Program-made: the position numbers and the translations under genes
Source: a virus
DNA length: 20,433 bases
Virus record (IMG/VR): IMGVR_UViG_3300001847_000739
Span: 1 to 20,433 of that record
Strand: one strand, 5' to 3'
Part shown: positions 1 to 17,340 of the stretch, in pieces
How positions within the stretch are numbered: position 1 is the first letter of the stretch
How the letters are laid out: the number at the start of each line of letters is the position of its first letter
The notes under the pieces: generated by a model
Seen by the model: only the letters and a program-made list of their open reading frames with translations
Databases searched by the model: none
Told to the model about the DNA's origin: nothing

Positions 1-518
1 GGTCTCTCAGGAACCTCTGCCAGCCACTTCCTATAAACATCTTCCTGTGAATTTTTCGTCTTCTCTTCTCTCTTTTCTTCTATTCTTATTTGTGTGCCAG
101 TTTTGTAACCCCCGCCCTCGTGTTTTGTAACCCCCGTAGTCACGTTTTGTAACCCCCGCCCCGACAAAGCCTCTATGATCATCTCGTCGTTTATCAGGTA
201 GTGATTAACAGTTTGAACTCCTTTAGAGGGAACGGTTGTCTGCTTAGGAACTATAGTCAGAAATCCCTTGTCCTGAAGATCCTTAGATGCACGTCTTCTC
301 ATCTGAGAACCCATGGCAAGATCTTCTTCTATCGTCTCAGATAGAGCGTAGAAGGACCCGTCTGATCCAAGATCTCCGCGCGCGTAAAAATACTCGCGTC
401 TCTGCACAAGGTCAGACAACAGAATTGCTGCACTATAGTTTCCGTCGAGGATCTTGACTAGATGCTTGTTTACTATCCAGAAAGAGTTCTGGCTTAACAT
501 ATTGGTCAGTAACTTCAT
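1..518 (-). CDS. Winged-helix replication-initiator-like protein, partial (C-terminus off the left edge)
   Basis: Reverse-strand reading from an ATG at 518 stays open for 172 codons to the window edge, so the C-terminus is missing. Residues about 11-110 look like the N-terminal winged-helix domain of phage replication initiators and replisome organisers: an FWIVNK start, a helix with AAILLSDLVQRREYF, an FYALSETIEEDL segment, a recognition-helix-like RRRASKDLQDKGFL, and a beta wing ending in NHYLIND. After that comes a glycine-rich linker and a strongly charged, Glu/Lys/Arg-rich stretch. The linker is encoded by three exact DNA repeats in three different frames, which argues that the DNA, not the peptide, is conserved there. 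The gene starts 3 nt after the primase stop, with no strong ribosome site, so it is probably translationally coupled. The family assignment is by pattern only; a plain transcription regulator is the alternative. Confidence 0.72.
   Translation of the reverse strand, partial: MKLLTNMLSQNSFWIVNKHLVKILDGNYSAAILLSDLVQRREYFYARGDLGSDGSFYALSETIEEDLAMGSQMRRRASKDLQDKGFLTIVPKQTTVPSKGVQTVNHYLINDEMIIEALSGRGLQNVTTGVTKHEGGGYKTGTQIRIEEKREEKTKNSQEDVYRKWLAEVPER
52..90. other. AT-rich, purine/pyrimidine-asymmetric tract next to the iterons (candidate duplex-unwinding element)
   Basis: Of these 39 nt only three are purines on the + strand (G58, A82, A88), and 28 of 39 are A or T. The tract begins 9 nt beyond the iteron array on the side of the gene's 3' end. 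A lambda-type origin has the same order within gene O: winged-helix code, iterons, then an AT-rich asymmetric unwinding region. It also encodes a charged Glu/Lys/Arg segment, which alone could explain the purine bias. Confidence 0.5.
100..158. repeat. Three direct 15-nt iterons at 22-bp spacing inside the initiator gene
   Basis: The 15-mer gttttgtaacccccg occurs exactly at 100-114, 122-136 and 144-158, so the period is 22 bp, about two DNA turns, and all copies lie on the same DNA face. The 7-nt spacers differ. Because 22 is not a multiple of three, each copy is read in a different frame (LQN, VTK and YKT on the reverse strand). Size, spacing and position match iterons bound by an origin-binding protein; binding itself is inferred. 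Confidence 0.85.
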
Positions 519-521
519 CTA

Positions 522-1400
522 TTAAGCTTTCTTTAAGCCTGAGGCAAGGTGAGCAGCCGGATCTTCACCGTTCCTCAGTAGGTCGTTCCAGTCTACGCCT
601 TCGCTCTTTACGAACGAGTAGTGCGTACATGCGCCGGCTGTTGCCATCTTATCGAAGGCCTTTAGTCCCGCGTCGTCGTTGTCGAATGCTGCTATAACTT
701 TAGTTCCAGATTCGATGAGCTCTCTGAGCTTTTCAGAATGGTATTTTGAGATGCTTGCGCCTGACGTTGATATACAGCGATATGGATTTTTTAGTAGGTT
801 TCCGTATTTTGCGTTGAGTGCCTGTTGAAGGCTTGCTGCATTTATCGCACCCTCAGCTACGACTACGTATCTTACGTTCGTGCTCAAAGGCTGCTGAGTC
901 CATCCCCAGAATAAGTACCCAAGTCTTGTACCTGGAAGTGTGGTGATCTTCCAGTCGTTTCCGTCTTGGTCTTTTCTTGGCTCTATGAACCTGATCTGTG
1001 CGCCTACGAAAGTGTTCTGAAAATAATAAGGAAGAACGATGCCGTCTTTTTCGCTGTCGTAGTACATCTCAGGTGGATTTATAAGTCCACGTGACTTCAA
1101 GTATGCTACGCCACGTGACGACTTAGGATCAGAGAGCGGATGAAAAGATCTCGGCCAACTCATAGCTGAGACTTCCATCTCGCCTGCTTCTTCAAACTTA
1201 AGTCCTAGAGACAAGAATTCTTTTAGAGAAATACCTGCAGTATTGCAGTAATCATACAACGAATATCCGCGCTGACATTTTCCCTGGCACCATAACCATA
1301 TCTCACCTGTGTCAGGATCTTTGTGCGCATACAAACAATCGTTGCGCCTTCCCTCCTTACAAATGAGACATTTTTTAAAACTTAAAGCGATATCGTTCAT
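522..1400 (-). CDS. DnaG-type DNA primase (zinc finger plus Toprim domain)
   Basis: This 292-residue protein would make RNA primers for phage replication. Residues 11-45 hold a zinc-binding module with C11-x2-C14 and C38-x3-C42. A Toprim fold follows: the catalytic glutamate lies in VVVAEG (E183) and the metal-binding DxD signature in FDNDDAG (D240, D242). It is shorter than bacterial DnaG and carries no helicase domain, unlike T7 gp4, so a separate helicase must be supplied by the host or by genes outside the window. Its ATG overlaps the stop of the preceding small gene as ATGA, which suggests translational coupling. The order small protein, primase, initiator forms one leftward operon. A Toprim nuclease is a less likely alternative because the zinc finger and gene context favour primase. 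Confidence 0.85.
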   Translation of the reverse strand: MNDIALSFKKCLICKEGRRNDCLYAHKDPDTGEIWLWCQGKCQRGYSLYDYCNTAGISLKEFLSLGLKFEEAGEMEVSAMSWPRSFHPLSDPKSSRGVAYLKSRGLINPPEMYYDSEKDGIVLPYYFQNTFVGAQIRFIEPRKDQDGNDWKITTLPGTRLGYLFWGWTQQPLSTNVRYVVVAEGAINAASLQQALNAKYGNLLKNPYRCISTSGASISKYHSEKLRELIESGTKVIAAFDNDDAGLKAFDKMATAGACTHYSFVKSEGVDWNDLLRNGEDPAAHLASGLKKA

Positions 1401-1675
1401 TTTAAGTGACCCTTGATTAGGGATTCGAGGGTCTTAATCTCTTGATCGATATCTGCTTGATCTCTTAAGGAGGATGGTTTGTGGTGCATTTTTTCTTCTG
1501 GAAATTGATCTGGCATCGTTTTTAGATTTGTGACTACGATCTTTATCGATGTTCCGAATCGGTTTGAAGAAACCAAGTCGATACGGTACTCGTCGCCGAT
1601 ATAGAACGGCCGATTGGTGTTAAGCCACCAGAACATAACCGTTTCAACTGGTTTACGAATTTTTTCCTTAAACAT
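1397..1675 (-). CDS. Small hypothetical protein, first gene of the leftward operon
   Basis: About 92 residues; no family recognised. The sequence has an aromatic, positively charged N-terminus (PVETVMFWWLNTNRPFYIG), a predicted beta-rich middle (YRIDLVSSNRFGTSIKIVVTNL) and an acidic helical tail. No membrane segment or signal peptide is evident. The longest reading starts at 1708, where its ATG would overlap the ATG of the divergent helicase. The ATG at 1675 is preferred because a perfect GAGGAG ribosome site (complement of 1683-1688) sits 7 nt upstream. The stop overlaps the primase start as ATGA. Being co-translated with primase and the initiator suggests a replication accessory role, but this is guilt by association only. 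Confidence 0.7.
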   Translation of the reverse strand: MFKEKIRKPVETVMFWWLNTNRPFYIGDEYRIDLVSSNRFGTSIKIVVTNLKTMPDQFPEEKMHHKPSSLRDQADIDQEIKTLESLIKGHLK

Positions 1676-1706
1676 GTAGAATCTCCTCATAACATCAGGG
1701 GTTTTC

Positions 1707-3131
1707 ATGTATCAAGATTATACGAAAGATCATCCATATGCGACAGTTGCGCACGTGTTTAATGATTTAATAAGAATCGATAATCTTGATAAATCGATCG
1801 AATCGGAAATAAAATCGCAGCTTACGTATGTAGATAAGTCAAAAGAGTATCAGCTAAGGCGCATGCAGAAAAATCCTTATACCAGAAACTCTGAGGCATA
1901 TGCGCAACTTTCCAAGGAATCAAAAGGAGATCTTTGGAAAGAGAGCGGCAACTCGCTGATTGTTCCGTCTGGTTTTCTTTACATCATAAAGAACTATGTA
2001 AACAACATAATCGATCATAGAAAAGACACTGGACCCCAGGTTTCCCTACCGTGGTCAACTCCAAAGGCTGCTTTTGAGCTTCGCGACTATCAGAAAGAAG
2101 CAATAGAGATAGCGTTAAAAAACTATCGAGGCATTATCAACTTAGCGACTGGGCTCGGCAAGACAAAGACCGCAATATATCTAATACGCCAGCTAAAGCG
2201 CAACACACTCATAGTGTGTCCTAGTAAATCGATAGCAAATCAGTTCTATTCAGAGCTGGTAGAGACATTTGGTAAGTCTAAAGTTGGATTCATAGGTAGT
2301 GGTAAGTATAAACCATCCATAATAACCGTCGGCATAGCAGCTTCTGTCTGTAACCGCATCGACGACATCAAGGCCCTCGACCTTGGCGTTGTAGTCTTCG
2401 ACGAGACCCACCATACTCCTGCTAGCACCTTCTATACTGTAGCCGAGGGATTAGGTACCGTGGGCCGTATGTACGGGCTCACGGCTACCGCTTTTCGATC
2501 GGACGGAAAAGACTTACTGATTCATGCAGCATGCGGTGAGATATTGGTTCAGCGAGACGTCGCCTGGGGAGTCGCAAAAGGATGGCTATCTCAGCCTTAT
2601 TTCATAGTTCGACACGTTAAAACGTCAGGACGCGACTTTAAAGACGACAAGTTAAGAGCATACAAAGAGCACATCTTAAACAGTAAAGATATGAACGATC
2701 GCTTAATATCAGACATATCTGCATTCGTTGCTGCTTCAAAATTTACGCTGATCCTTGTCGATCAGATCGACCATGGAGACACCTTATCTAAGGCTACTGG
2801 TGTTGCTTTTGCTAACGGAAGAGATAAGGGATCAGAAGCGCTCATAGGATCCTTTAACGACGGCAAGATCAAGTCGCTTATAGCAACCGATGGCCTAGTC
2901 GGCGAAGGTGTAGACACTAGAAATGTAGAAGTTCTTATAATAGCAAATTTTACAGCTTCTAAGTCTGCTGTGCTTCAAGCAGTAGGTAGAGGCTTAAGAA
3001 AGACTGCAACAAAGGATAAGTGCATAGTTCTCGACTATGTACCCGAAGGATCCTCGATGTTAGCTAGACATGCCGGCAAAAGAATATCCTACTACAAAGA
3101 GATAACTCACAACGTTAAAATCGTACAATAA
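1707..3131 (+). CDS. SF2 DEAD/DEAH-type helicase (UvsW-like)
   Basis: 474 residues. The N-terminal ~120 residues resemble the accessory region of phage UvsW-type helicases (GNSLIVPSGFL). The helicase core starts with the LRDYQKEAI Q-like motif, then Walker A ATGLGKTKT (147-155), DETH box (232-235), motif III LTATAF (258-263) and motif VI QAVGRGLR (424-431). UvsW in T4 unwinds R-loops and remodels branched DNA, helping the switch from origin-dependent to recombination-dependent replication. That role fits the RuvC-like nuclease, UvsX-like recombinase and SbcC-like ATPase encoded downstream. The start is preceded by a weak AGGGG (1697-1701), and the divergent operon begins only 31 nt away. T5 D10 is a similar phage helicase, so the exact orthology is open. 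Confidence 0.88.
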   Translation: MYQDYTKDHPYATVAHVFNDLIRIDNLDKSIESEIKSQLTYVDKSKEYQLRRMQKNPYTRNSEAYAQLSKESKGDLWKESGNSLIVPSGFLYIIKNYVNNIIDHRKDTGPQVSLPWSTPKAAFELRDYQKEAIEIALKNYRGIINLATGLGKTKTAIYLIRQLKRNTLIVCPSKSIANQFYSELVETFGKSKVGFIGSGKYKPSIITVGIAASVCNRIDDIKALDLGVVVFDETHHTPASTFYTVAEGLGTVGRMYGLTATAFRSDGKDLLIHAACGEILVQRDVAWGVAKGWLSQPYFIVRHVKTSGRDFKDDKLRAYKEHILNSKDMNDRLISDISAFVAASKFTLILVDQIDHGDTLSKATGVAFANGRDKGSEALIGSFNDGKIKSLIATDGLVGEGVDTRNVEVLIIANFTASKSAVLQAVGRGLRKTATKDKCIVLDYVPEGSSMLARHAGKRISYYKEITHNVKIVQ

Positions 3132-3821: not shown

Positions 3822-4526
3822 ATGACTAATGCTTCTACTATTTTTGGAACATCAATAAAAATTCATCAAACTAAGTTATTTGATCCAGATTCCGTATGGC
3901 CGCAGAACGTTGAGGTATGCATAACGCGAGTGCCTATCCGTAAGCGAGATGGATACTCGCAAGAGTTTATTAAGAACTTTGCAAACCGTTTAAAAAATTC
4001 CATGAGTAAAAACGGCATAGTCTTTCTAGTGTGCTATGCTCCAACGGAAGCAAAATGGCGCCCTTTTGAGGTGGCTAAGGAGATGGTTGACGTAGGTTTC
4101 AATCACGTCGATAATATAGTCATTGAAAAGACATGGCTGCCAGGAAAAAGAGCAGAGAACATGTTAGTGAATAGTCACGATTATGTTCTTTTCTTTTGTA
4201 ACGGCGACGTATGGAAGATCGATAGAAAACCAGTTAAAAAATATTCTCTTTTAGAAGAGAGCCCGCAATGTATAGGCAATACATGGCTGGTAGAGACAGG
4301 GTCCTTGGACGAGGCATACTCAGAAGATCTAGCCGAACTATTGCTTAGGACTGCAGATGCTCTTCCAGGAAGCAGCGTATTTGATCCATTTATGGGAAAT
4401 GTAGCTTCGCTTAAGGCGTGTCTTAAGCTTGGACACTCTTTAACTGGCTTTGAGACAGATCAGCGTAAGATCTCTCAGTACAACAAGATTATTCAGGAAT
4501 TTAAGAAGAAGGGAGCTTTTGCGTGA
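3822..4526 (+). CDS. DNA methyltransferase-like protein with degenerate catalytic motif
   Basis: 234 residues with the circularly permuted (class beta) order of N4/N6 DNA methyltransferases: the target region comes first and the SAM-binding motif I last, here VFDPFMGNVASLKACLKLGHSLTGFETD (186-214). The usual DPFxGSGTT is changed to DPFMGNVAS. The position expected to hold the catalytic motif IV (D/N/S-P-P-Y/F) reads CITRVPIRKRDGY (33-45), so the catalytic residues appear to be missing or strongly altered. It may therefore bind SAM or DNA without methylating, or use an unusual active site. The gene overlaps the GroEL start by 4 nt, so the two are made together. Ribosome site AAGG lies just upstream. 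Family membership is fairly sure; activity is doubtful. Confidence 0.72.
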   Translation: MTNASTIFGTSIKIHQTKLFDPDSVWPQNVEVCITRVPIRKRDGYSQEFIKNFANRLKNSMSKNGIVFLVCYAPTEAKWRPFEVAKEMVDVGFNHVDNIVIEKTWLPGKRAENMLVNSHDYVLFFCNGDVWKIDRKPVKKYSLLEESPQCIGNTWLVETGSLDEAYSEDLAELLLRTADALPGSSVFDPFMGNVASLKACLKLGHSLTGFETDQRKISQYNKIIQEFKKKGAFA

Positions 4527-6223
4527 TTTACGTAAAATCCAAATCCAAAGACATGATTGATGATCCTAATCAGATAAACAACGTAGTTCTATCTACTTTG
4601 TCTCGCATGGCAAATATCGCATCAAGAACCTTAGGACCGGGCGGAAGACCTGTCTTGATCGAGCGCGAGGGTATGCCACCTCTAGTCACAAAAGACGGCA
4701 TTACGGTAATCAAAGCATTAGGGATGCCAAATGCTGCGGCAAACACAGTTTTGGATACTTGCAAAGAGATATCGCTTAACACGGCAAGAGATGCGGGCGA
4801 CGGCACGACTACTGCGATCGTTCTCGCGGATGCAATTGTTAAAGCTGGATCTTCATTCATGGCCACAAATAAGCGTTATAATCCTCAGCGCCTTATAAGT
4901 GAACTACGTAAGTGTTACGATAAGGTAATCCTCCCTTACCTTAAGGACGTAGCGGTCCAGGTTAAGTCAGACGAAGATCTCAGAAGGGTAGCCTTGATAT
5001 CAGCAAACGGCGATCAAGACGTTGCAGACGTTGTAGTTAAGGCCTTCATGTCAGCGGGCGACGACGGTCATATCTTGATTCAAGAAGATCAGGGTGGAGG
5101 AATGCGCGTAGAGACTGTAGACGGTTTTATCGTGACCTCTGGTCTAAAAGATATCGGAGCAATCGGTACGGCTTTCATAAACGATCGAGCGAATCAGCAG
5201 GTCAGAATGGATGCTGGTTTAGTGGTTCTGTTTGACGGCACCTTAAACGATCTCGTCCTTCCTGCTGCGGTTCAATCTGCCTGTGAGAGCGATGCTGATT
5301 TCTTCGGAAAGCCTATCATCTTGATGGCTCACGGATTTGCGGACAACGTTATCGAGAAGTGCTTAAAGACCTCAAAAGGCGGCGTAACCGTTCTACCGGT
5401 AAAGGTTCCAAAGTCAAGCATCGCAAACTCACGAACTATGTTCCTGCATGATATGGCAGCATATACTGGCGCCACAGTCATGGATCCGGCAAGTGCTCCT
5501 TCTTTTGGCAGCGATCATTTTGGCAAGTTTACATCAGCAAAGATAAACACATACGAAGCGTTTATTCAGTGCGAATCAGATGGGGATCTGATCGAGGAGC
5601 GCGTGTCAGAGCTAAAGGCAATACTAACCGCTGCACACTCCGAGCACGATCGCGCTCATCTTAGGGCTGCTATAGCCAAGCTTACTGGTGGTATCTCTAC
5701 TGTTTGGGTAGGCGGTATCACCGATGCCGAGATCCGCGAAAGACGAGATCGAGTTCAAGATGCGGTTGAGGCGGTTAGATCTGCGGTAGCAGAGGGTATC
5801 GTAGCCGGCGGATGTGCAACACATCTTGCTCTTGCAAAAAAGATAAGAGAGGAAAGCCAATCTCCTGCCTGGAACATACTGGCAGATGCGTTAGAGCAAC
5901 CATTCAGCATTCTTTTGTCCAACTGCGGAGAATACGATCGACACAGCGAGCTATATTCTGCAATCGTCAAGAGCATCAGAGGATCTGTTCCTAAATTGGT
6001 GTTTGACGCAAACGATCACGAAACAGTCGATCCATTTAATGCCGGAATCGTAGAGCCTGCCAAGGTTCATCGCGTTGCAATCGGAAATGCTTTATCAGTA
6101 GCGTCGCTCATGGTTACGCTCGGTGGTATCGTAGTTGCTCCACGCGATTATAACCTAGAAACTCAGATGGAATTGAGTAAGGCAGCATTTAAGGATATGC
6201 TTACAGAAGTAGGTGATGAATGA
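4523..6223 (+). CDS. groEL: Phage-encoded GroEL-type chaperonin
   Basis: 566 residues, close to the bacterial 548. Hallmarks of the equatorial ATP site are kept: TLGPGGRPV (36-44), KDGITVIK (57-64, with the D52 equivalent), DAGDGTTTA (90-98, with the D87 equivalent), the RVQDAVEAVRSAVAEGIVAGG region (D398 equivalent) and GIVEPAKVHR near the C-terminus. The family folds substrate proteins in an ATP-driven cage. The C-terminus lacks the Gly-Gly-Met tail of bacterial GroEL, and many core residues differ, so this is a divergent viral chaperonin; known phage examples can work without GroES, and no groES is present here. Translation starts at a GTG overlapping the methyltransferase stop, with GGGAG upstream. 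Likely clients are phage virion or replication proteins. Confidence 0.93.
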   Translation: MIYVKSKSKDMIDDPNQINNVVLSTLSRMANIASRTLGPGGRPVLIEREGMPPLVTKDGITVIKALGMPNAAANTVLDTCKEISLNTARDAGDGTTTAIVLADAIVKAGSSFMATNKRYNPQRLISELRKCYDKVILPYLKDVAVQVKSDEDLRRVALISANGDQDVADVVVKAFMSAGDDGHILIQEDQGGGMRVETVDGFIVTSGLKDIGAIGTAFINDRANQQVRMDAGLVVLFDGTLNDLVLPAAVQSACESDADFFGKPIILMAHGFADNVIEKCLKTSKGGVTVLPVKVPKSSIANSRTMFLHDMAAYTGATVMDPASAPSFGSDHFGKFTSAKINTYEAFIQCESDGDLIEERVSELKAILTAAHSEHDRAHLRAAIAKLTGGISTVWVGGITDAEIRERRDRVQDAVEAVRSAVAEGIVAGGCATHLALAKKIREESQSPAWNILADALEQPFSILLSNCGEYDRHSELYSAIVKSIRGSVPKLVFDANDHETVDPFNAGIVEPAKVHRVAIGNALSVASLMVTLGGIVVAPRDYNLETQMELSKAAFKDMLTEVGDE

Positions 6224-9089: not shown

Positions 9090-9536
9090 ATGGAATCGCT
9101 GATCAAAAAACTAGCTCAGTTGTCTGACTTGATGAAAGCCAGCCTGATGCCCAGCTTAAGGATGCCGTCCATTGAGCCGCCTAAGCCGCCTAAAGCTCCC
9201 TCGTTGGCCCCAAAACCCAAGAAGAATCCAATCAAAGTTGCGCAGCAGGTCACGGCCCCGAGCGCAAAGGATTTTGCTATGCGACAAGCCACTGCTCAGG
9301 TCCAAGCGGCCAGTAACCCTCTCGCATATACAGCAAAATCTGAGGGCGAATCTTATCATTACCACATAACCGAAAACGGTTATAGAATTACTGATAAGCC
9401 ACTTTCTCTTTCTGATATAAACGTCAAGCACGGCGGGGTAAAAAACCTTGAGAGTGCTGGATTTAGGCTCGTTCCAGTAAAGAAAGAGACCGTTAAGCTT
9501 TCTAAAAACGGCCAGTGGACTCTAACAGAAGAATAA
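9090..9536 (+). CDS. Hypothetical protein with proline-rich linker
   Basis: 148 residues, no family recognised. Residues 1-20 are a short helix (MESLIKKLAQLSDLMKASLM), residues 25-60 are a Pro/Lys/Ala-rich, probably disordered segment, and residues 85-145 look like a small alpha/beta domain (YHYHITENGYRITDKPLSL, then a VKNLESAGFRLVPV helix-strand pair). The stop is 3 nt before the RuvC-like gene start, so it belongs to the same operon. The ribosome site is weak (TAAG), so translation may be coupled to the SbcC-like gene ending 4 nt upstream. A linker joining two binding parts suggests an adaptor, but no function can be assigned. Confidence 0.72.
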   Translation: MESLIKKLAQLSDLMKASLMPSLRMPSIEPPKPPKAPSLAPKPKKNPIKVAQQVTAPSAKDFAMRQATAQVQAASNPLAYTAKSEGESYHYHITENGYRITDKPLSLSDINVKHGGVKNLESAGFRLVPVKKETVKLSKNGQWTLTEE

Positions 9537-9539
9537 ATC

Positions 9540-10184
9540 GTGAAAACAATACTGACGCTCGATCCAGGCCAGTCCTGCGGTTATTCTGTCGCCAAAATCG
9601 ACGGCGATCACTGCGAGATCATCGAGTACGGCTTCATAGACGTGGACAACTCCTCGCCGTACATGGGCGATTGGTGCATAGATCTTCAGCGAAGATTGTC
9701 TGAGATCAATGACAGAATCTCAGCAGACGAAGTGGCAGTTGAGGATTACTTTTATTCGAGTCGCTTCAAGCAAGGTGCAAACGTTAATCCAGCATATCGC
9801 GCGGCCATACACATGTGGTGCAGATCTAGAAATATGCACTACGAGATCCTTAACATCTCCAACTGGAAGGTCTTCATAGCTGGAAGATCCACGCCAACTA
9901 AGCTACAGAAACAGAAATGGGGTGCATCTCCGGCCAAAAAGCTTATGGTCGTTGAAGCGCTGTGGAAAAGATTCAATATAAGATTTCCAAATCACAGCAT
10001 ATCGGAAAACACCGGAAAACCTATCATATTTCGCTTCGATGTGGTAGACGCTGTGGCTCAAGGGATGTATGCTGCTTTTGCAAGATATAACTGCAAAACA
10101 TACACGTGTTCCGTTCCTGTTCCGCCAGACGTCACGTTCAAGAAGACCAACACGAAACAATTTGTTTATGAAGACCTTGTATAA
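9540..10184 (+). CDS. RuvC-like Holliday-junction resolvase
   Basis: 214 residues, starting at a GTG. The RNase H-like nuclease fold is visible: TLDPGQSCGYSV gives the first aspartate (D8), VAVEDYFYS the glutamate (E68), and FDVVDAVAQGMYAA the two C-terminal aspartates (D167, D170). This is the pattern of RuvC-type resolvases, which cut four-way junctions symmetrically. A long insert, QKQKWGASPAKKLMVVEALW (132-151), contributes basic residues probably used in DNA binding. Phages with recombination-dependent replication need such an enzyme, usually T4 gp49 or a RuvC, to debranch DNA before packaging, which matches its place beside the SbcC-like ATPase. Crossover-junction specificity itself is not shown by the sequence. 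Confidence 0.85.
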   Translation: MKTILTLDPGQSCGYSVAKIDGDHCEIIEYGFIDVDNSSPYMGDWCIDLQRRLSEINDRISADEVAVEDYFYSSRFKQGANVNPAYRAAIHMWCRSRNMHYEILNISNWKVFIAGRSTPTKLQKQKWGASPAKKLMVVEALWKRFNIRFPNHSISENTGKPIIFRFDVVDAVAQGMYAAFARYNCKTYTCSVPVPPDVTFKKTNTKQFVYEDLV

Positions 10185-13314: not shown

Positions 13315-16300
13315 ATGAAAGCCTACCTTTACCTCGACGTCGAGACGACAGGCCTCAACCCATACACCAACGATATCATACAGCTCGCTTGCATCCCCAT
13401 CATCGATGGGGTCGAGCATGAGCCGTTTAACCAATATTGCCAACCTATAAATTGGAACAACATAGAAGAAGCCGCACTTAAGGTTCATGGAATCACCCGC
13501 GAACAAATATTGACCTTTCAATCGCCTTCCGATCTGGTCGATAATTTCGTTAAATATCTTTCTAAGTTTAAAGTTAAATTCGTGATGTCTGGTTACAATA
13601 CGAACTTCGATCGATCTTTCGTGTCGTCCTTGTTTCAAAAAGTAGGACGCCAGAGCGAGTTTGCGTCGTATTTTTCTAGCGAGATACGAGACGTCTACAT
13701 AAGGGCTAAAGGCGTTAAAGATCAACTTAAGACTACTAAGTTTAAGCTTGTGAATCTCGCTGAAGAGTTTGGCATAGAGATCAATGCTCACGAAGCAATG
13801 AGCGATATCAAGGCCACTTATCTAGTTGACATGCGTATCGCAGAACTGGTCGGTGAGCAGTTTGCTGAAGTCTCTATAGTTGATAACATCGAACCATTAG
13901 GCATAAAGAATCTGCCACTACTGCATGTTCACTCAGAATATAGCAATACCGACTCAGTTGTATCAGTTGAGGATTGGGTTCTGTGGGCTTATAAGAATGA
14001 TGCTAAAGCCGTAGCTTTCCCAGATCATCATTGGGCTGCCTCTTTATATAAGTCTATAAACTTTAAGGCTGTTGCAGACAGAATAAAGAAGATCCACAAA
14101 GTCTCAGTTCCAGAAGGTGCTGTAACAATCGTTCCTGCCATAAGCATAAACGTATCTGTTACCGGAAACCCGATGGATCACTTCAGGCTAAACGCTTGGG
14201 CTGTCTCAAATCAAGGCTATTTCAATCTGCTAAAGCTCTCTTCTTTAGGCTGGGATAAAGCCATAGAAGACTCAGATGTAAAGATGGCCGTTGTGCATAT
14301 CGATGAAGTTGCGAAATATAAAGAAGGCGTCGTTTTCGGTAGCGCGTGTGACAAAGGGCTTATAGCGTACCTATTCCTTAGGGAATCGAAGGACATACGT
14401 TTAGAAGTAGATAAGGTACGAAAGAAACTAGGATCACTGATACTCGAACTATTGCCGATCGATGTCACAAAACACTTTGGCAAAGGTATAGGTTTTAGAT
14501 CATTTCAAACCACAACAAACCTAACAGAATCAGTCAATCAAATAGTAGCAGATCTAATTGACTCTGGAAAGTACGATTTTATAGTATCTTCTGCGGCACA
14601 CTATATCGATCAAGACGATAAAGTCCTTCAAGACGTTGTCTCAAAATCTTCCTTCAAGGATAAGAGATTCTTCTATGAGTCTCGCCATCAAAGGCCCATG
14701 GATGAGCAGTACGCTATACTTAAGCGCCACCTAAAGAACTGGATGACCTTGGACAAGATCGAGTTGGCTCGCGCAACGGCTGACAAGATAGTAGACGAAG
14801 CTTCAAAGATCTCGATAAAGCATGAATACCATCTACCAAAGATCCCTATCCCAGAGTCTATATCGTCGCACACCGATGACTACGACAAGCAGTTATATTT
14901 ATTGCTGATGGCAAAGATAAAGGAACACGGTCGATGGTCCGATGATCCTGAGTACGTATCTCGGTTCAAGAAAGAATTGAACGTAATATGGAAGAACTCT
15001 AGACTTAACTTCTTGCCGTACTTCTTGATGTACGAGGACATATGCGCCTACGCTAGATCCAAAGGCATCCTTCAGAATCTTGCTCGTGGTTCTGCTGGCG
15101 GATGCTTGATATCGTATTACTTGAAGATCATCCACGTCAACCCGATAGAAGAAAAGCTGCCGTTCGAGCGCTTCCTAAGCCACGCCCGTATCAACGCTAG
15201 TAGTTTCCCAGACATCGATCTAGACCTTGGAAACCGCACCCCTGTTCTAAAGTATCTGGCTGAAAAATACGGCGTAGGTTTCGCTCAGATCGGTACGATA
15301 CAAAAGTTCAAGACCAAGAACGCCCTGAAGGACGCGATGTTTGCCATATTCGGCAGAAGCCGTACCGACCGAGAAGTCATGGATGTTTGTCAGACCATCC
15401 CAGACTCTCCACAGGGCCTCGATGAAACCGACTTCTTATATGGCTACACTGACTCAGAGGGCGTTTATCACAGAGGCAATTTAGAGGACAACGAGGTTCT
15501 TCAAGCATTCTTCAAGCAATACCCAGAGATCGAGCAGGTAACAAAACGCCTGATCGGTCTGCCTAAGGGCATGGGTAGGCATGCTTCAGCTTTTGTTATA
15601 TCGACTCTCGACATCTCGCATGAGCGCGTTCCGACCATGATATTCGAGGATGAAGAACTTGGTCCTGTGCCTGTGACTCAGTTTGAGGCGCCGATGATCG
15701 AGAAGTCTGGTCTCGTAAAGGCAGATGTTCTTGGTCTAACCACCATCAAGACCATAGAAATAGTCGTAGACCTAGTTAAGCGCAACACGGGCATCGATCT
15801 TCTCGAGGAAGACGACAGAGGCGTTCAGATGCTTTATCGTTTGCCAGAGGATCCAGGCGTTTACGAAGACTTCTACAAGCGAAAAACCGATTCGTCTTTT
15901 CAGTTCAACACGGATCTTATCAAAAGCTACATCAAGCAGTTCGCTCCTGTATGTCGCAAAGATCTAGCTGACCTTACTGCTTTATGTCGCCCAGGTGCAT
16001 TAGATGTCGAGTTTATCCCAGGCGTGTCTGCTACACAGTTCTATATAGACGTAAGAAACGGCGCTCGAGAGCCAGAATATATACACGAAGATCTTCGTGA
16101 GATACTCGAGGAAACCAATGGGGTAGTGACGTACCAAGAGCAACTCATGGAGATCCTGGTTAAGTTTTGCGGCTATACGCTCGAAGAATCTGACCAGATC
16201 AGATCTGCGATTGCAAAGAAGAAGCGCGACGTGATGACCAAGGCTTTTGACAAAGTTAGAACAGAGACCGCGAAGCACGGCTGGACGCTTGATCAAGCAG

Positions 16301-17340
16301 AAGAATTATGCAAGGTTTTGGAAGCATACTCCAATTACAGTTTTAACCGCTCACATTCCGCTGCATATGGACACCTCGGCTACATCACCATGTACCTTAA
16401 ACGAAACTTTCCACTAGAGTGGTGGGCGGCAGAACTCAACAACTCAGGCGAAGACAAGATCCGCCACTACGTCTCTATTCTAGGCGATCAGATAATTCCA
16501 CCGTCTATCCGCAATCCTTCAGATAAGTTTGCCATAGTTGGGAAGCGTATCGCAGCTCCACTTTCGACCGTTAAGGGTTTGGGCCCTGCCAGCATAAAGA
16601 ACATAATCGCAAAAGGACCGTTTACCTCCTTTGAAGATTTCGTCACCAAGACCAATGGCCCAGTAAACTCGTCCCATTTCTGGGCCTTACTAAAGGCAGG
16701 AGCATTTGATGAATTGGCAGACGACTCAGAGTCCATAACCGAAGCGCGTGAAAGATTTATAGCTTATTACACTAAACTAAAGAAGATACGAAAGGTACCA
16801 GAAGAAGTTGCTGACGTATCGCCGCTTAACATCTTTCTAAATCAGCGAGAGATCTATAAGTGTTTCAATAAAGCCGTACTCGACGATCCCTATATAAGGA
16901 GGCAAATATCCGAGATGTGGCCTGCTATGCGCGAGACCAGAAGAAAAGACATACCGTTGGCGTTTGGCTCAACTCCAGCCGTACCGGTAATAGCATCTGT
17001 AAGCGTAGCAGAAAAACTGATCGCCTCTCAAGAGTCAAGCGAAAACCCGTCTTCCATAAAAGTTGCTATGATAGGACTATATCAGTCATCGGAACACGCA
17101 GAAGGTATATCTAAGCACGGTAAACCATGGTCGCGAGTGAGGATGATATTATCCGATGGCTTGTCCTCTATGGAGTGCGTTAAGTGGGATCAGAAGAAGG
17201 CCTTCCGTTTTCCTGTAGACTCGCTTGTTTATGTTATGGGAAACCTTAAACGAGGATGGCGCGGTGCACCAACCATAGAGATACTTGAAGTAGAGAGAGT
17301 GGAAAGTCAGGAGACTTTAAATAATAGAAAGACGCGTTAG
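13315..17340 (+). CDS. dnaE: DNA polymerase III alpha subunit with fused DnaQ-type proofreading exonuclease
   Basis: 1341 residues: about 180 of exonuclease plus a full-length alpha subunit. Exonuclease motifs: DVETTG (8-13), GYNTNFDRSF (D99) and HEAMSD (H159, D164). A PHP domain follows (HVHSEYS 204-210, PDHH 236-239). Polymerase palm: PDIDLDL with catalytic D633/D635 or D635/D637, and D804 in KADVLGLTT; then TYQEQLMEIL, FNRSHSAAYGHLGYITMYLK, a helix-hairpin-helix GLGPASIKNII (from 1088) and a C-terminal OB fold (about 1238-1330). This is the replicative enzyme, replacing the A- or B-family polymerases usual in phages. No clear clamp-binding peptide was seen. Some PHP ligands look altered, so that domain may be structural. 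It is probably its own transcription unit with a regulated leader. Confidence 0.97.
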   Translation: MKAYLYLDVETTGLNPYTNDIIQLACIPIIDGVEHEPFNQYCQPINWNNIEEAALKVHGITREQILTFQSPSDLVDNFVKYLSKFKVKFVMSGYNTNFDRSFVSSLFQKVGRQSEFASYFSSEIRDVYIRAKGVKDQLKTTKFKLVNLAEEFGIEINAHEAMSDIKATYLVDMRIAELVGEQFAEVSIVDNIEPLGIKNLPLLHVHSEYSNTDSVVSVEDWVLWAYKNDAKAVAFPDHHWAASLYKSINFKAVADRIKKIHKVSVPEGAVTIVPAISINVSVTGNPMDHFRLNAWAVSNQGYFNLLKLSSLGWDKAIEDSDVKMAVVHIDEVAKYKEGVVFGSACDKGLIAYLFLRESKDIRLEVDKVRKKLGSLILELLPIDVTKHFGKGIGFRSFQTTTNLTESVNQIVADLIDSGKYDFIVSSAAHYIDQDDKVLQDVVSKSSFKDKRFFYESRHQRPMDEQYAILKRHLKNWMTLDKIELARATADKIVDEASKISIKHEYHLPKIPIPESISSHTDDYDKQLYLLLMAKIKEHGRWSDDPEYVSRFKKELNVIWKNSRLNFLPYFLMYEDICAYARSKGILQNLARGSAGGCLISYYLKIIHVNPIEEKLPFERFLSHARINASSFPDIDLDLGNRTPVLKYLAEKYGVGFAQIGTIQKFKTKNALKDAMFAIFGRSRTDREVMDVCQTIPDSPQGLDETDFLYGYTDSEGVYHRGNLEDNEVLQAFFKQYPEIEQVTKRLIGLPKGMGRHASAFVISTLDISHERVPTMIFEDEELGPVPVTQFEAPMIEKSGLVKADVLGLTTIKTIEIVVDLVKRNTGIDLLEEDDRGVQMLYRLPEDPGVYEDFYKRKTDSSFQFNTDLIKSYIKQFAPVCRKDLADLTALCRPGALDVEFIPGVSATQFYIDVRNGAREPEYIHEDLREILEETNGVVTYQEQLMEILVKFCGYTLEESDQIRSAIAKKKRDVMTKAFDKVRTETAKHGWTLDQAEELCKVLEAYSNYSFNRSHSAAYGHLGYITMYLKRNFPLEWWAAELNNSGEDKIRHYVSILGDQIIPPSIRNPSDKFAIVGKRIAAPLSTVKGLGPASIKNIIAKGPFTSFEDFVTKTNGPVNSSHFWALLKAGAFDELADDSESITEARERFIAYYTKLKKIRKVPEEVADVSPLNIFLNQREIYKCFNKAVLDDPYIRRQISEMWPAMRETRRKDIPLAFGSTPAVPVIASVSVAEKLIASQESSENPSSIKVAMIGLYQSSEHAEGISKHGKPWSRVRMILSDGLSSMECVKWDQKKAFRFPVDSLVYVMGNLKRGWRGAPTIEILEVERVESQETLNNRKTR

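Follow-up and report, generated by a model that had tools for sequence, protein, structure and literature searches.

A putative theta-type replication origin of iterons and an A+T-rich tract embedded in the initiator gene of an uncultured tailed phage

The window analysed in this work, meaning the whole stretch of 20,433 nucleotides, is a fragment of the genome of an uncultured tailed phage (IMG/VR record IMGVR_UViG_3300001847_000739). A replication initiator gene is located at its left edge, which truncates the gene and leaves residues 1-172 of about 300 visible. The window ends before the gene downstream of the initiator, and the helicase neighbour on that side is known from relatives. A co-directional Toprim primase-like gene lies directly upstream of the initiator gene, and a 103-aa ORF next to it apparently heads a primase-initiator(-DnaB) operon. 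The features of this region are the following:

3..518, minus strand: replication initiator gene (PHROG 428, E 1.1e-7; N-domain model and fold matches)
52..90: A+T-rich tract, polypurine on the coding strand, candidate DNA unwinding element
100..114: iteron 3, same 15-mer as iteron 1
122..136: iteron 2, same 15-mer as iteron 1
144..158: iteron 1, closest to the gene's 5' end, coding-strand sequence CGGGGGTTACAAAAC
522..1400, minus strand: Toprim primase-like gene (Pfam Toprim_2, E 1.7e-9; PHROG 239/47 DNA primase)
1397..1708, minus strand: 103-aa ORF without a family match

The start codons of the 103-aa ORF on the minus strand and of a helicase gene on the plus strand (1707-3131) overlap in CATG at 1706-1709. 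Divergent promoters therefore cannot fit between them, and one of the two starts is probably wrong. The window also encodes Pol III alpha, UvsX-like, gp32-like, and SbcC-like genes, in agreement with an earlier sequence-only reading of this DNA, which had placed a Pol III-type polymerase and T4-like recombination genes nearby. The Pol III alpha (1341 aa, 13315-17340) carries a DnaQ-like exonuclease fused N-terminally, before the PHP domain, and no cultured phage has a single match covering 80% of this protein. Furthermore, a phage-encoded chaperonin of the Cpn60/TCP-1 family (566 aa) is located at 4523-6223, and an N6/N4 DNA methylase gene (PF01555, 3822-4526) lies between it and a dUTPase gene. 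No near DNA match was found among cultured phages, and one scan of 84,980 genomes returned no cellular-host or prophage relative.

The initiator gene contains three identical copies of the 15-mer GTTTTGTAACCCCCG with start-to-start spacings of 22 and 22 bp, about 360-420 nt into the gene, at codons 121-142 of about 300. Since 22 equals 1 modulo 3, each copy is read in another frame (RGLQN, GVTK, and GGYK); the repeats with their period and separate frames were thus exactly as first described. The best three-copy score in a 15-column window was 15/15 at the array versus 7/15 elsewhere in the 20,433 nucleotides, and it did not exceed 10 in 100 Markov shuffles of the window. There was no further copy of the 15-mer in the window. 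Across 21 viral stretches, outside three near-identical relatives, the 15-mer occurred in single copies only and formed no array, and in a 135-kb relative its core was found only within the equivalent three-copy array. The array is adjoined, toward the 3' end of the gene, by the 39-nt tract at 52-90, whose previously reported composition of 3 purines on the plus strand and 72% A+T was reproduced. It is the most strand-asymmetric 39-mer of the window, its asymmetry being reached only by the 39-mers starting at 52 and 53 when both strands of the whole window are considered. The array together with the tract is far beyond chance.

Both elements were retained in a 74%-identical relative (L004), which served as the reference for the codon comparison; the gene is present on contigs of 108, 135, and 31 kb. 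Synonymous change in the array and tract was nearly nil in this relative: the codons of identical residues were themselves identical in 29 of 31 cases, whereas outside these two elements only 47 of 93 in the gene were (Fisher p=6e-6). The corresponding count for the adjacent primase gene was 132 of 219. Judging by these counts, coding need alone does not explain the codon conservation of the array and tract.

Most of the homologues checked had repeats at the matching position of the gene, as the origin proposal had called for, although the repeat sequences differ. Significant linker arrays with a period of 22-24 bp (p<=0.02) were detected in 12 of 18 genes versus none of 18 controls taken from the 5' part of the gene. 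Significance was assessed against shuffles of each gene's linker; the 18 genes are not fully independent observations, as several close relatives are among them. Four of the 18 genes, some of them distant homologues, gave no significant array (p>=0.17), and the result was borderline for another two. A second clade, 27-54% identical to the L032 protein, has another iteron, GGGCTGAAAA....GCCCAGTACA, in three copies with a period of 24 bp at the same gene position, which are then followed by purine-rich DNA of the AATAAGAATAAAGAGAA type. A period of 24 bp preserves the reading frame, and in that clade the repeat may therefore be one of the protein. Farther out, starting with the Flavobacterium-phage type, the homologues often have arrays with a 23-bp period and still other sequence, and AATAATAATAA-rich linkers. 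In each of the six relatives measured, no other 40 nt of the gene are as rich in purines as this tract, which also ranks within the top 0.1% of the locus. In L004 its 40 bp are, in addition, the gene's least stable, but this does not always hold in the other relatives.

These data bear on the explanation that the repeats merely arose when a tolerant protein linker underwent tandem duplication, and that they have no function as DNA. The linker is predicted to be disordered (pLDDT 36-55) and the period is in frame in the second clade, both of which would fit such an origin of the repeats. On the other hand, the 22-bp period of the clade to which the window belongs is out of frame, out-of-frame 23-bp arrays recur in other homologues, and synonymous sites are nearly frozen in the array and tract, while half of them have changed elsewhere in the gene. 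A duplication by-product is thus considered highly improbable.

In addition to PHROG 428 'replication initiation protein', the 172 visible residues gave weaker profile matches to DnaD-like loaders and to the O-like family. Among 17 homologues, 16 matched PHROG 9773 'O-like' and 14 matched PHROG 428. Residues 1-118 form a winged-helix domain, followed at about 119-156 by the linker whose DNA contains the candidate origin. The model of the N-domain, built from a 17-sequence alignment, was a winged helix with pLDDT of about 90 over residues 21-90, so structure prediction and fold matches bore out the N-terminal winged-helix-like domain suspected earlier. In Foldseek, the top four solved structures were RepA_N plasmid initiators (prob 1.0), one of them in a Rep-DNA complex. 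A second structure comparison (VIA) placed 4pql, 4pt7, 4pta, and 5kbj within the top five at Z 9.2-9.8, where an unrelated winged helix, the archaeal regulator 2d1h, ties at Z 9.8; the DnaD N-domain reached Z 7.2. RepA_N was also ranked first by the N-domain sequence profile (4pql), with an E-value of only 0.12, and Pfam RepA_N (PF06970) was unmatched by all 17 homologues at E<=1. By its modelled fold, the protein would be closer to RepA_N/DnaD-type initiators than to lambda O. The C-domain model was poor (pLDDT 70), and a fold search with it gave nothing reliable, so the recruitment of helicase and primase proposed below is deduced from gene order only. A search for relatives of the C-domain bearing other N-domains returned only the already known set.

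Together with the Stx-phage O/ori, the lambda ori is among the closest known systems (PMC7466680). When the same code was run on lambda O, the iterons were found at codons 117-145 of 299, and the 40 bp directly behind them were both the lowest in stability and the highest in purine content within the gene. The two systems are thus alike in having iterons mid-gene at nearly the same codons, with an A+T-rich, purine-asymmetric tract directly 3' of them. They differ in the number of iterons, which is four in lambda and three here, in the iteron sequence, and in the gene upstream of the initiator, which here is the primase. Moreover, the gene of the loader P follows O in lambda, whereas in the relatives a DnaB-type helicase gene follows the initiator (DnaB_C directly downstream in the 135-kb relative L060, DnaB-like in L036), so these relatives lack the O-P module with P directly downstream. 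An Endonuclease VII-like gene was also observed in L060, directly downstream of the helicase gene (9168-9869). A profile comparison with hhalign found no similarity to lambda O, and the 17 homologues gave no Pfam match to a phage O family, although 16 of them matched PHROG 9773 'O-like' as stated above. The lambda-like arrangement suggested for this locus therefore stands as an order of parts (winged helix, iterons, A+T-rich tract, C-domain), but not as profile similarity to O.

The Rep protein of pSK41 binds, by its N-terminal 120 residues, four boxes located in the middle of the rep gene, and its origin-coded linker is dispensable (PMC5703833). In pPR9, the N-domain and origin were naturally swapped while the C-domain was retained (PMC5703833). 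RepA_N initiators (pSK41 Rep; 4pt7, 4pta, 4pql, 5kbj) resemble the protein studied here in their size of about 300 aa, in the sequence of winged-helix N-domain, origin-coded linker, and C-domain, in the central position of the boxes in the rep gene, in the N-domain fold as modelled, and in the exchange of N-domain and origin as a module (pPR9; here L032 versus L035). They differ in that the Pfam RepA_N family is not matched here and in that the present replicon is a virus rather than a plasmid. RepA_N C-domains have a DnaD-like fold and contact the DnaG primase; the weakly modelled C-domain here gave no fold match. The RepA of PLE is of the RepA_N type and has three semi-palindromic iterons of about 30 bp; there the origin varies together with the N-domain, against a conserved C-domain (PMC7145576, PMC8263062). 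PLE shares with the present family the three iterons and an origin co-varying with the N-domain, but its origin is intergenic, and PLE is a phage satellite that needs a helper phage to replicate. Among annotated phages, Flavobacterium phage Fpv5 (NC_031921) has an N-domain 35% identical to the one here in a PHROG 428 protein annotated as replication initiation protein, with an A+T-rich AATAATAATAA linker. Its C-domain is TIGR02220, unlike the C-domain here. In L046, a close relative of Fpv5, a 23-bp array was weakly visible (p ~0.05).

By comparing L032 with L035, the nucleotide identity was mostly 60-79% in the upstream primase gene, fell to 43-65% over positions 1-400 of the initiator gene, which cover the N-domain and iterons (mostly 43-53%, with one 100-nt bin at 65%), and rose to 69-82% past position 400 through the C-domain. 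The proteins are accordingly 44% identical in the N-domain and 79% in the C-domain. The reverse was observed for L036 and L040, which are 65% identical in the N-domain and 33% in the C-domain, and the iteron type is common to both. In these sequence comparisons, the iteron type tracks the N-domain and not the C-domain, which is expected if the N-domain reads the iterons. The same co-variation bears on the possibility that the array is a site for packaging (pac/terminase), partition, or recombination and not for initiation. Phages do carry several kinds of repeat sites within their genes as a matter of general knowledge, but here the repeat sequence follows the initiator N-domain across relatives, and the genes recognised beside the array in the window include no terminase or partition gene. 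Such a function is therefore judged very improbable.

We propose that the array and tract are very probably the origin of theta-type replication for this phage, situated within the coding sequence of the initiator that would act on it. This reading is supported because the lambda-O-like order is present and repeats occur at the same point in most homologues; the PHROG 428 match, the synonymous constraint, and the co-variation with the N-domain likewise favour the candidate origin put forward by the sequence-only reading. The class, an in-gene iteron origin, is already known from lambda and RepA_N plasmids, and the locus shows its marks: three direct repeats mid-gene, at a period within the range of about 20-24 bp, with an A+T-rich tract of low stability directly 3'. 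A winged-helix protein with cognate repeats would also be compatible with autoregulation, in which the repeats serve as an array of operators through which the protein only represses transcription or elongation of its own gene, and replication starts elsewhere. However, the array lies far inside the gene and away from its start, a conserved low-stability polypurine tract follows it as in the lambda ori, and the gene, which matches replication initiator families, is located between primase and (in relatives) DnaB. An operator is therefore improbable, if slightly less so than the two alternatives above. The skew data gave the origin no further indication. The GC-skew switch expected at the gene was absent, as the contigs of three relatives (134.9, 84.6, and 83.6 kb) had no clear turn there, nor did the cumulative skew of the 135-kb relative. 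A TA-skew maximum near the gene on the 134.9-kb contig arises because gene direction switches and was hence not counted as evidence.

In the mechanism of the proposed origin, the N-domain (about residues 1-118) would bind the three iterons, 22 bp apart, within the linker-coding part of its own gene. The occupied array would strain the adjoining A+T-rich polypurine tract, which would then open. Two enzymes would next be recruited by the C-domain: the DnaB-type helicase, whose gene comes after the initiator in relatives, and the Toprim primase from the gene just before it. The rest of the phage replisome, including the Pol III-type polymerase, would follow. A precise and testable candidate origin would thereby become available for a group of large uncultured phages that encode a Pol III-type polymerase of their own alongside T4-like recombination genes, and the in-gene iteron layout of lambda and RepA_N plasmids would extend to a divergent initiator family. 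Since natural mosaics show the iteron type tracking the N-domain, these initiators lend themselves to the study of how winged-helix and iteron specificity change together.

We raise, as a tentative idea that is rather less likely to be right than wrong, that the N-domain and in-gene iterons are a self-contained specificity cassette swapped as a unit, while the primase, C-domain, and DnaB gene are kept. If so, a single recombination event would alter both the origin and the domain reading it. Pressure for such exchange may come from interference directed at origins or from co-infecting phages competing with one another, for which PLE RepA and the Odn nuclease offer a published precedent.

Among the homologous initiators, that of L056 (2986-3400; IMGVR_UViG_3300028534_000053) is open only with TGA read as sense. 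Under code 25 (TGA=Gly), the codon falls on conserved glycines (LGQ, LKGIPAK), and this sequence pattern suggests a host of the Gracilibacteria/Absconditabacteria type for that phage.
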